From Pisciglobus halotolerans (GTDB lineage: Bacteria; Bacillota; Bacilli; Lactobacillales; Carnobacteriaceae), in assembly GCF_900113675.1 (NCBI RefSeq), contig NZ_FOQE01000011.1, positions 24,001-64,989 on the forward strand: a DNA stretch of 40,989 nucleotides. The letters run 5' to 3'. Shown here piece by piece: positions 12,551 through 39,945 of this stretch. Positions within the stretch are counted from its first letter, which is position 1. The number at the start of each line of letters is the position of its first letter. Both the position numbers and the translations under genes were made by a program. The notes under the pieces are model-generated. The model had not been told where the DNA came from and ran no database searches. It was given only the letters and a program-made list of their open reading frames with translations.

Positions 12551-12564
12551 GGTTCTATCATATT

Positions 12565-12670
12565 TAACATTGGTCAGTAAAAAACATTTTTTACTGCTAA
12601 ACTCGTTAGAATCTTATTTCTAGAAATTTCAGTAGCCCATCGACCGGAAGAACTTTATTTACCAATGTTA
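12565..12670 (+). repeat. MITE-like repeat, copy 1 (106 bp)
   Basis: Bounded by the inverted repeat TAACATTGGT (12565-12574) and ACCAATGTTA (12661-12670). It shares a core of over 50 bases with copy 2 at 39823-39931, with very few differences; conserved blocks include CTCGTTAGAATC, CTAGAAATTTCAGTAGCC and CATCGACCGGA. Just inside the left end is a perfect hairpin, CAGTAAAAAA with TTTTTTACTG. No coding frame. Outer TA bases are consistent with a TA target duplication (inference). Confidence 0.85.
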
Positions 12671-12798
12671 GAAGAGAAAGAACTGTTTTTTGTAAATCGT
12701 TTTGATAATAATTTCATTTACGATCAAAAATTTTCTTTTTTTTAGAAAGCAATAGAAAGAAAAAAACATTTAAATAAACTAAAGACTGACCTACCACG

Positions 12799-33173: not shown

Positions 33174-33182
33174 AAAAGAAGT

Positions 33183-33414
33183 ACCCTGTGAAAGAAAGAG
33201 TAGGTATGTTTCCGTATAGAAGAGAAAATTTCCTTGGCTGAAAGAAATTTTACGTTGATTCATATTGAATGACATTCTGGAGGGTCAGTAATGAAAAGTT
33301 ACTGCGTATCGAGCGTTAATCGTTAAGGAAAGTGAGAACTTTCAAAACAAGGTGGTACCACGTGTAGAAATCTACTCGTCCTTATTCTTTTGCAAGAATA
33401 AGGACGCTTTTTTT
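33183..33414 (+). promoter_or_regulatory. T-box riboswitch of hisS-aspS
   Basis: Senses uncharged tRNA and controls termination before hisS. Stem I is closed by ACCCT (33183-33187) and AGGGT (33281-33285). Its 3' side has the specifier region GAAT-GAC-ATTC, with GAC at 33271-33273. Stem III is AGTAA (33287-33291) with TTACT (33299-33303). The T-box sequence AAGGTGGTACCACG is at 33349-33362. The terminator is a perfect 13-bp stem (33377-33389 with 33394-33406) and seven T. GAC codes Asp; the overlapping CAU (33273-33275) codes His, matching both downstream synthetases. Confidence 0.93.
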
Positions 33415-34835: not shown

Positions 34836-36611
34836 ATGGCCAAAAGAACAAGTTATTGTGGACAAGTTTCTAAAGCTTTATTAGGGCAAGAAGTAGTATT
34901 AAAAGGATGGGTACAAAAAAGAAGAGATTTAGGAGACTTGATTTTTATCGATCTACGTGATCGTGAAGGAATCGTTCAAGTTGTTTTCAATCCAGTTTTC
35001 TCAAAAGAAGCACTTGAAACGGCAGAAAATATCCGCAATGAATATGTGATCGAAGTACGCGGAAAAGTTGTTGAACGTAGCGAAGGCATGGCCAATAAAA
35101 AAATTGCCACAGGTGAATTAGAAATTGAAGTATCTGAGGTGACCGTGCTGAATAAAGCCAAAACACCTCCTTTCTATATTGAAGATGACCTGAATGTTGC
35201 CGATGATCTTCGTTTGAAGTACCGTTATTTGGATTTAAGACGTCCAGAAATGACGAAAAACATTTTATTGCGTCATCAAATCACAAAATCAGTTCGCCAA
35301 TATTTAGACCAGCAAGATTTTATTGATATTGAAACACCTTATTTAACAAAATCAACTCCGGAAGGCGCTCGTGACTATTTGGTTCCTTCTCGTGTTCATC
35401 CAGGACATTTTTATGCTTTACCACAGTCACCTCAATTATTTAAACAGCTATTGATGGGAGCGGGATTTGATCGCTATTATCAAATCGTACGCTGCTTTAG
35501 AGATGAAGACTTACGTGGAGACCGGCAACCAGAATTTTCACAAATTGATATTGAAACGAGCTTCCTAGAACCAAAAGACATCCAAGACTTTACTGAAGAA
35601 ATGTTGGCTAACGTATTGAAAGATACAAAAGGCATTGAGTTAAAAAAACCATTTCCTCGTATGACTTATGCAGAAGCTATGAACCGCTATGGCAGCGATA
35701 AACCAGATATTCGTTTTGCTATGGAACTGGTCAATGTCAATGAATGCGTGAAAGAGGCAGGTTTTAAGGTTTTTACAAGTACAATTGAAAATGGTGGCAT
35801 GGTTAAAGCCATCAACGCAAAAGGAGCAGCTACACATTACAGCCGTAAAGACATCGATGCTTTAGGAGAGTTCGTGGGGATCTATGGTGCAAAAGGACTA
35901 GCTTGGATGAAAGTCGAAGAAGATGGATTGAAAGGTCCAATAGCTAAGTTCTTTAAAGAAGGTGCAGAAAATCTCATAAAGGCAATGAATGCTGAAGCTG
36001 GAGACTTATTGCTTTTTGTAGCTGATCAAGAAAAAGTTGTCCATGAATCTTTAGGTGCCTTACGTGTGAAATTAGGAAAGGAACTGGATTTGATCGATCC
36101 TTCTGTTTTCGCATTCTTATGGATTGTAGATTGGCCAATCGTTGAATATGATGAAGATGAAAAAAGATATACAGCTATGCATCATCCATTCACGATGCCA
36201 AGGGAAGAGGACCTTGCATTACTAGAGAACGCACCTGAAAAAGTGTTAGCTCAAGCTTATGATATTGTATTGAATGGTTATGAACTTGGCGGCGGCTCTA
36301 TGCGGATTCACCAGCGCGAGATTCAAGAAAAAATGTTTGAAGTGTTAGGATTCACAAAAGAATCTGCAGAAGAACAATTTGGTTTTCTGCTAAATGCTCT
36401 AGAATATGGCTTCCCACCTCATGGCGGCATCGCAATTGGCTTAGACCGTTTTGTTATGCTGTTGGCTGGCGAGGATAATATCCGTGAAGTTATTGCATTT
36501 CCTAAAAATGGAAGAGCAATCGACCCGATGGCTGAAGCGCCTAGTGTGGTTAGCCAAAAACAATTGGAAGAATTATCTATTCGTACAACTGAAATTGAAG
36601 AAGATGAATAA
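34836..36611 (+). CDS. aspS: Aspartate-tRNA ligase
   Basis: Charges tRNA-Asp. 591 residues, bacterial-type class II synthetase. N-terminal OB-fold anticodon-binding domain ([20 protein letters not shown] in part), motif 2 [21 protein letters not shown], the GAD insertion domain (about 290-410), and motif 3 [20 protein letters not shown]. Second gene of the T-box operon; a terminator follows 20 bases after the stop. Confidence 0.98.
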
Positions 36612-36631
36612 CCTTCTATTAGATTTATTTG

Positions 36632-36669
36632 CAGTCGACTATGGTTTCAATATAGTCGACTGTATTTTT
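36632..36669 (+). terminator. Terminator of hisS-aspS
   Basis: CAGTCGACTAT (36632-36642) pairs perfectly with ATAGTCGACTG (36652-36662), followed by TATTTTTATT. Confidence 0.87.
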
Positions 36670-36687
36670 ATTCAGTTCTTCCTCTTC

Positions 36688-37110
36688 TAACATTGGTAAA
36701 GAAATCTCCTCCGATCGATAGGACTACTGAAAGTTCGATAAATAATGCTTGTTGAACAAAGAAAAAATGTACTACTCTCAATGTTTTCAGCTACTTTATT
36801 TGGTAGTACCTTCAAGCTTTTAGAGCGATTTGTACAAAAACCTTGCAGTTTTGAAGTGATGCAGTCCTAACGTGATAGGAACCAAGCAAGACTGAGAATG
36901 AATTAGCCTTTGTTGCATTCGAAACGAATGCTTACAAAGGCTTTAAGGTCAAGCTTGAGGAGACTACAGGCTCCTCAAGTTTGTCTGGTTCCCTTCACGT
37001 CTCAGGACTGAAAAAGCGAAAATAACTGCAAGGTCTATTATTTAGCAGCTATTAAATAGGATTCTAACGGATTTAGCATTAAAAAAATGATCTTTTAATG
37101 ACCAACGTTA
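36688..37110 (-). repeat. MITE-like repeat, long copy 3 (423 bp, inverted)
   Basis: Ends are TAACATTGGT (36688-36697) and ACCAACGTTA (37101-37110). Read on the minus strand, the first 57 bases match the left half of copies 1 and 2 (CCGTTAGAATCCTATTT) and the last 53 match their right half (TTTCAGTAG, ATCGGAGGAGATTTCTTTACC). About 310 bases (roughly 36741-37052) sit between the halves, absent from the short copies, and contain the structured segment 36841-37033. Either the full-length form of the element or a short copy that received an insertion. Confidence 0.8.
36841..37033 (+). ncRNA. Structured RNA candidate, 6S-like layout
   Basis: Five nested or adjacent helices, all seen directly: CCTTGCAGTT (36841-36850) with AACTGCAAGG (37024-37033); CAGTCCT (36862-36868) with AGGACTG (37004-37010); ACGTGA (36870-36875) with TCACGT (36995-37000); GGAACCA (36878-36884) with TGGTTCC (36986-36992). 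Inside lie two hairpins: 36905-36942 (9 + 7 bp, AAA loop) and 36950-36983 (13 bp including one G-U). The pattern of closing stem, open region, apical hairpin and a hairpin on the 3' side resembles 6S RNA, whose B. subtilis gene (bsrA) also lies near aspS. Plus strand is favoured by the G-U pair and gene order, but the minus strand has TTTTT after the closing stem. Confidence 0.5.
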
Positions 37111-37187
37111 AATATTGTAGGACCTTTTATTCCAATACCAATCTTTTGGCTAATGGCTTAAAAATAAGTGCCTTGATGTGCAGAATG

Positions 37188-37204
37188 TTTCATTTGAAAT
37201 GAAA
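37188..37204. promoter_or_regulatory. 17-base palindrome, operator-like
   Basis: TTTCATTT G AAATGAAA, perfect on both sides of a central G. It lies about 115 bases upstream of the nfo promoter. The rest of 37111-37302 shows only a short hairpin, ACCGTT with AACGGT near 37257-37274, without a T-run. No regulator family recognised. Confidence 0.4.
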
Positions 37205-37302
37205 TTTAACAGAAACTTACAAAAAGGAGATGCTGATCAATAAAGGTAAGGGCTGCAACCGTTTTTTGAACGGTATTGAAGCCTGGAAGAAGATGAAAGT
37301 GA

Positions 37303-37331
37303 TTGTTCTTTGGAACAAATTTCGCTACAAT
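37303..37331 (+). promoter_or_regulatory. Promoter of nfo
   Basis: -35 TTGTTC (37303-37308), 17-base spacer, -10 TACAAT (37326-37331). Confidence 0.65.
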
Positions 37332-37371
37332 AAACACGAGAAGATAGTTTATACAAGATAGGAGATATCAT

Positions 37372-38286
37372 ATGGTTTTAATTGGCTCACATGTTTCTAT
37401 GAAAGGAAAAAAGATGTTGCTGGGGGCGGCTGAAGAAGCAGCAAGCTATGGTTCAACAACATTTATGATTTATACAGGTGCACCTCAAAATACGCGCCGA
37501 AAACCAGTAGAAGAAATGAATATTCCCGCTGGAGAAGCATTTATGAAAGAAAACGGCTTATCTAATATTGTCGTTCATGCACCCTATATCATCAATTTAG
37601 GAAATACGATCAAGACAGAAAATTTCGGCTTTGCCATTGAGTTTTTGAGAGAGGAGATTCTACGTGCAGAAGCATTAGGCGCCAGACAAATCACGCTCCA
37701 TCCAGGGGCACACGTTGGAGCTGGGGCAGATGCAGGGATTGCTCAAATCATTAAAGGGTTGAACGAAGTGCTGCATAAAGATCAAAAGGCACAACTTGCT
37801 TTAGAAACAATGGCAGGGAAAGGAACAGAAGTTGGACGTTCCTTTGATGAATTGGCAAAAATCATTGATGGTGTGACCCTAAATGAAAAATTGTCGATCA
37901 CACTTGATACTTGCCACACCAATGATGCTGGTTATGCTGTCAGAGAAGACTTTGATGGTGTACTAAACGAATTTGACCACATTATCGGGTTAGATCGCTT
38001 GAAAGTCGTTCATGTCAATGACTCGAAAAATCCAATGGGCAGCCACAAAGACCGACATGCCAACATTGGATTTGGAACAATCGGTTTTGAAACGTTAAAC
38101 CGAATCGTTCATCATCCTCAATTGGTTGATAAGCCAAAGATTTTAGAAACGCCTTATATCGGAACAGATAAGAAAAGCAAAAAAGCACCATATGGATATG
38201 AAATCAATATGTTTAAAGAACAATCTTTTGATGCTGAATTAATCAATAAAGTCGAAAGTCAATTGAATGCGAATGCTGCACACTAA
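37372..38286 (+). CDS. nfo: Deoxyribonuclease IV (AP endonuclease, endonuclease IV)
   Basis: Cuts DNA 5' of abasic sites in base-excision repair. 304 residues, TIM barrel with three zinc ions. Motifs: [83 protein letters not shown] and the last ligand in ILETPY. All expected His, Glu and Asp ligands are seen. TAGGAG precedes the ATG. The insertion-rich 760-base region lies just upstream. Confidence 0.97.
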
Positions 38287-39759: not shown

Positions 39760-39822
39760 AAATGAAACAACTGAGCTGAATCACTTTGATGAATGAGATG
39801 AAAAAACTAGTTCTACAACATT

Positions 39823-39931
39823 TAACGTTGGTCTGTAAAATATCAATTTTTTTAATACTAAACTCGTTAGAATCCTATTTCTAGAAATTTCAGTAGCCCA
39901 TCGACCGGAGGAAATTTCTTTACCAACGTTA
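39823..39931 (+). repeat. MITE-like repeat, copy 2 (109 bp)
   Basis: Ends TAACGTTGGT (39823-39832) and ACCAACGTTA (39922-39931), a perfect 10-bp inverted repeat; the outer bases TT/AA extend it by two. The core matches copy 1 closely. AGAAATTTC and GAAATTTCT inside the right half can pair as a 9-bp stem with a loop of about 19 bases. It lies between the TPM gene and a convergent terminator. Confidence 0.87.
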
Positions 39932-39945
39932 AAAGAAGAAGAACC

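Follow-up and report, generated by a model that had tools for sequence, protein, structure and literature searches.

The window, as we call the whole 40,989-nucleotide stretch of Pisciglobus halotolerans DNA analysed here (contig NZ_FOQE01000011.1, positions 24,001 to 64,989 of the forward strand), contains between two genes a strongly folding segment that lies within a set of nested repeats. The features of this locus, with positions counted from the first base of the window, are the following:

34836-36611, + strand: ORF of 591 aa, upstream neighbour, which we take to be aspS (aspartyl-tRNA synthetase)
36630-36664, + strand: intrinsic-terminator-like hairpin after aspS and before the repeats, with a 14-pair stem and a T run
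36674-36743, + strand: left half of an outer repeat, starting GTTCT and including the left AAAT (36740-36743); outer boundary set by eye
36744-37053, + strand: putative miniature transposon (MITE) of 310 bp with ends AATGCTTGTTGAACAA / TTATTTAGCAGCTATT, delimited by genomic copies, by ends common to an IS5-family element and by the flanking AAAT
36744-36840, + strand: A-end of the MITE, with terminal repeat and small hairpin (blastn)
36841-37033, + strand: folded rod with two inner hairpins (folding, pair counts, comparison of copies)
36905-36945, + strand: inner hairpin 1 (folding, blastn)
36950-36983, + strand: inner hairpin 2, with arms 36950-36965 and 36968-36983
36976-37053, - strand: B-end of the MITE, comprising an arm with GCAGTTATTTTCGC and the terminal repeat; this is where the MITE most resembles the left end of the insertion sequence described below
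37054-37124, + strand: right-hand half of the outer repeat, with the second AAAT at 37054-37057 (blastn)
37372-38286, + strand: ORF of 304 aa, downstream neighbour, presumably an nfo-like gene for deoxyribonuclease IV

None of the ORFs of at least 50 aa touches 36744-37053, and no tRNA or tmRNA was found in 36000-37500. The scan for terminator-like hairpins returned one, against 0.2 expected in shuffled sequences. The 247 bp before nfo (37125-37371) are not accounted for by the two repeats. Upstream of aspS, a T-box leader (33179-33386, 97.6 bits) precedes a gene that we take to encode histidyl-tRNA synthetase, and is the sole Rfam match in the whole window at the gathering score.

The predicted fold of 36841-37033 comprises 68 pairs, arranged as a single rod with two inner hairpins, and on the + strand its folding energy is -90.5 kcal/mol, compared to -46.5 (sd 4.1) for shuffled sequences (z -10.7, 0/200 as good). 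These figures agree with the preliminary description of this DNA, in which helices totalling about 59 bp, slightly fewer than the pairs found here, formed one rod with two inner hairpins between the halves of a mobile-type repeat; the repeat halves are likewise recovered, as blastn matches at 36675-36730 and 37054-37124. The limits originally given, 36841-37033, are those of the fold, but the element holding it is wider, extending over 36744-37053 between the two AAAT. The - strand of the same interval reaches -82.3 kcal/mol (z -8.7, 0/200 shuffles as good), and the entire element (36741-37055) also folds on its two strands, with z of -8.1 and -7.3 and 0/100 shuffles as good on each. That both strands of 36841-37033 fold well suggests an imperfect inverted repeat in the DNA, and the strong fold can be attributed to the inverted-repeat build of the element itself.

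With its length of about 190 nt, its closing stem and its hairpins, the segment had been read as a possible 6S-1 type gene near aspS that a mobile element had trapped, and a reference cited in PMC12005410 has, by its title, small RNAs of the B. subtilis aspS-yrvM interval as its subject. The resemblance to 6S RNA (RF00013) is nonetheless confined to length and rod-like outline. The covariance-model and all-family Rfam search that the preliminary description had proposed gave no match in 36841-37033 at the gathering score, and RF00013 was absent from 36600-37380 even in a permissive scan up to E 5, which listed six sub-threshold matches. One of these six, Enterococcus-1 RNA, was discarded, scoring 17.6 bits where the cut-off is 71.4, and at the gathering score Rfam likewise had no match in six further loci (L002, L003, L005, L207, L222 and L191). 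The single RF00013 match of the genome (E <= 0.001) lies on a different contig, at C68:1523-1711, and scores 81.2 bits (cut-off 46.4). B. subtilis itself has two 6S RNAs, and the absence of another 6S gene from a genome is context rather than a defining feature.

Gene order in relatives and the presence of further copies of the stretch in the same genome also argue against a 6S gene. Relatives of aspS at 73-79% identity were found in 17/17 other genomes of the family, and in two of these it is followed by nfo (82% identity) after a gap of 70 and 76 bp, compared to 760 bp here; in the other 15, no nfo lies within the retrieved stretch of about 1.5 kb past aspS. Gaps of 70-76 bp are too short to contain such an RNA. 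The 6S reading is therefore rejected, there being no covariance-model match here and the genome's 6S match being elsewhere, and we give it practically no chance.

The outer repeat into which the element is set provides a view of the site before insertion. Besides the interrupted copy, the window holds two intact ones:

12551-12683, - strand: uninterrupted outer repeat, CTAGAAATAAG at the insertion point
39810-39945, - strand: uninterrupted outer repeat, CTAGAAATAGG at the insertion point

Two further loci (L012 and L028) likewise read CTAGAAATAGG at this point, and the empty site of the uninterrupted repeats can be written CTAGAAATARG, with one AAAT where the interrupted copy has one on either side of the MITE, consistent with a target-site duplication. 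The four shared bases have A first and T last, so that a 2-bp duplication and TAATG ends are equally possible. Without the MITE and one duplication, the outer repeat measures 137 bp, with the MITE placed mid-way in it. The outer repeat is abundant, with at least 35 further places matching its right half alone, and had no match in the plasmid collection. Some of its copies hold an additional insert of about 146 bp. Short intergenic repeats with inverted ends are known from Enterococcus faecalis as EFAR repeats, and the outer repeat, also short and intergenic with inverted ends, can be likened to them by their general description.

The search for further copies that had been suggested at the outset was productive. 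Queried with 36733-37050, the genome itself (2.44 Mb in 88 contigs) presented 18 places at E <= 0.001, the query included, and queries from other copies of the MITE added further matches. The copy on contig C43 is 93% identical over nearly the full length of the MITE and one on C51, inverted, is 80% identical; partial copies are found on C41, C75, C51 and in other places. A search word for the B-end yielded 35 distinct occurrences in loci L001-L104, which, judged from their flanking sequence, comprise 22 real ones, 1 doubtful and 12 due to chance, and 10 of 21 occurrences of the A-end were judged real. The MITE is present in several copies, and these are intergenic: with limits set by eye, 19 of 21 sites examined are without any ORF of at least 80 aa that shares more than 40 bases with the copy, and the remaining two have short ORFs (88 and 104 aa) that do. 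The copies have common ends and differing interiors. The window copy, at 310 bp and without a transposase gene, falls within the size range of MITEs (about 50-1000 bp). Its G+C content is 38.7%, compared to 38.0% in its surroundings, and its A+T content of 61% equals that of the window; A+T richness is called typical of MITEs in PMC4596501 and PMC3049150.

The ends of the element lead to a complete insertion sequence (IS) in the same genome. A terminal-repeat pattern, TAATGNNTRCTRAAYAAWR, allowing one mismatch, has 19 matches in the genome, compared to one for the backwards control, and two pairs of these matches delimit the IS:

C68:16895-18489 and C86:1-1595: complete IS of 1595 bp

As the two copies are identical and both stand at contig ends, they may represent one locus. 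The transposase scores 413 bits with NF033578 (IS5 family; cut-off 275) and lies above the cut-offs of PF13586 and PF05598, and its best plasmid matches are from Tetragenococcus halophilus (64%) and Enterococcus lactis (57%). In the C43 copy, B-end and left IS end can be aligned for about 44 nt, beginning at the first base, and the B-ends of both the C43 and the window copy outscore all 2000 sampled internal windows of the IS. Taken alone, the A-ends are weak, 26/2000 (C43) and 344/2000 (window copy) internal windows scoring as high; the case for them is made by their terminal register, in which 13/17 positions (window copy) and 15/17 (C43 copy) agree with the IS, together with the pattern control. 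The MITE has in this sense terminal inverted repeats in common with an autonomous element, its B-ends above the controls and its A-ends alone not. The same IS occurs twice in a genome of another genus of the family (G014), at 94% protein identity, with ends TAATG and flanking duplications AATT and AAAT, as read by eye; that genome carries the IS but no match to the MITE.

Taken together, these data suggest that a non-autonomous miniature transposon (MITE) has the folded stretch as its interior, and that an IS5-family insertion sequence of this genome would have supplied, in trans, the transposase that moved it. The target would have been an ANNT site (AAAT), centrally placed in an abundant repeat of greater age that lies between aspS and nfo, and the fold would have arisen because the element has the arm beside the B-end in two head-to-head copies, separated by hairpins. 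The genomic copies, the IS-like ends, the flanking AAAT, the empty sites and the short gaps in two relatives support this explanation, which as a whole we hold to be very probable; that the IS5-family element made the move is what we infer. The folding of both strands, the opposite orientations of the window and C51 copies and the lack of a match in the 17 other family genomes also count in its favour. The interval 36841-37033 is most likely ordinary mobile DNA and not a 6S regulator. Some observations stand against the explanation: the A-ends are weak, matching duplications are not visible by eye in several older copies, and there is no A+T excess. The comparison of the arms, described next, adds to these, as it revealed double changes in five of 62 pairs, which plain decay does not lead one to expect unless one arm corrects the other, and own-arm preferences over 13 copies and over 10 long-rod copies.

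The preliminary description had offered as its alternative an RNA carried by the element. The interior of a mobile element is what we find, as a MITE; for the RNA part, the pairing of the two arms was compared across copies. In the four best copies (window, C43, C51 and C75), 93.9% of the cells compared pair, compared to at most 43% when the arms are slid along each other. Eight cells were changed on both sides, compared to 2.9 in shuffles (0/500 as high), and double changes keeping the pairing affected 5/62 pairs, compared to 2.5 in shuffles (11/500 as high), a statistic in which related sequences may exceed shuffles even without structure. Three copies (window, C43 and C51) have a good rod, while that of the C75 copy is weaker; this copy has lost 11/66 countable pairs, and its own best fold differs. 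When arms were exchanged between copies, the own partner fitted best among the four (p 0.04, the minimum attainable being 1/24), among all 13 copies (p 0.02, or 0.008 with G-U pairs; 0.03 and 0.013 minus the C43 copy) and among the 10 long-rod copies (p 0.001, or 0.003 with G-U pairs).

These results, together with the very stable fold, speak for an expressed, structured RNA from which the host or the element would benefit, for instance through holding back read-through or as a small RNA. Against such an RNA, the nine copies beyond the best four show 61% Watson-Crick pairing and own partners no better than those of strangers (p 0.54, or 0.37 with G-U pairs), so that the four best copies are taken to drive the arm-exchange result. 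Summed over these nine, the mispairs comprise 33 G-U and 25 A-C, similar counts that leave neither strand clearly favoured, and the RNAalifold covariation term for the four copies is slightly unfavourable (+0.88). Relative to their neighbouring ORFs, the window and C51 copies have opposite orientations, a terminator-like hairpin separates aspS from the element, and a simple scan found promoter-like sites at chance level (2 against 3.1 expected), none of them inside 36744-37053; one, at 37141-37114 on the - strand, is directed into the element and scores 9/12. MITE-derived small RNAs do have a precedent in other systems (PMC5896051), QMITE1 and QMITE2 being of similar size; these differ in that transcripts were found, whereas no promoter stands out here. 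An action of this MITE as RNA appears unlikely, and we consider a useful expressed transcript very improbable.

Correction of one arm from the other by template switching could also give double changes. A narrower form of the MITE explanation, which does not exclude it, takes the fold as a mere by-product of an inverted duplication of the B-end and of template switching, with no role in transposition. The poor matching of the arms in the nine copies is in keeping with it, as is a solo hairpin on contig C75 (G000:C75:69027; L191, approximately 1498-1618), which reads as two head-to-head B-ends with a perfect 24-bp stem and may be the rod in its simplest form. The A-end and the B-end differ in sequence in the longer copies, however, and the element is for this reason not simply a doubled end. 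We see the chances of this by-product form as evenly balanced. Only marginally less improbable than a useful transcript would be that the four best copies form a subfamily in which the rod is selected, as RNA or as a DNA cruciform, for aiding the element, for example by the protection or silencing of incoming transcripts. Were this so, a family with exchangeable hairpins and 52-bp palindromic arrays would amount to a modular mobile structured-RNA system known to date from this species alone. Under the trans-mobilised MITE explanation, a very strong fold is accounted for without a dedicated RNA gene, and strong folds on two strands call for mobile palindromes to be checked first.

The MITE had no match in plasmids or phages, nor in the 17 other genomes of the family, and one exact B-end pattern had no match in genome_contigs or viral_contigs. 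Of 395 genomes of the order, 3 matched a long-copy query, one being the own genome and the other two matching over only 42 and 28 bp. The family is apparently restricted to this species as judged from these searches, in collections that may omit near relatives and represent its genus by one genome. No report of it was found in the literature covered, largely openly available papers.

Two described families offer the closest architectural parallels. BrickBuilt of Porphyromonas gingivalis (PMC4596501) is likewise an intergenic, narrow-host MITE with IS5-like ends, with end modules placed around a tandem minisatellite and nested with other MITEs; it differs in its 23-bp units, compared to 52 bp here, and in its ends, and the present family has a palindromic rod and, in the window copy, no array. 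BOX of Streptococcus pneumoniae (PMC3049150) has end modules with variable tandem middle modules, a strong predicted fold that pairs the terminal repeats, insertion into repeats and a narrow host range; compared with it by architecture alone, the window copy is without a middle array and the present family has a likely partner IS. On these features the family would resemble BrickBuilt more closely than BOX. With its partner IS, uninterrupted target repeat and variable modules, it makes a handy case for the gain and loss of MITE modules.

The modules vary considerably between loci. In the C46 copy, a B-end is followed by a different hairpin module, then by 12.2 tandem units of 52 bp (93%) and finally by an A-end. 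Its 52-bp palindromic tandem array (L207, 1038-1674; G000:C46) is found in 17 other retrieved loci; by blastn, a MITE end is present in 5 of the 18, only an inner MITE module in 6 and neither in 7, so that the array also exists independently of the MITE, as far as blastn can tell. A second 52-bp array, of other sequence (L222, 1508-2147; G000:C31), has 12.3 units at 83% and adjoins a B-end in all six retrieved loci that hold it (L222-L226 and L240). A hairpin like that of a second MITE subgroup (about GCAAAGTCTCGC..GCTCGCTTTGTA) occurs outside the MITE in L227-L229 and L231-L233 and may for that reason be a separate repeat. At one further locus (L037, from approximately 1565; G000:C73:51438 onward), a B-end leads into what by eye appears to be a broken tnpB of the IS200/IS605 type.
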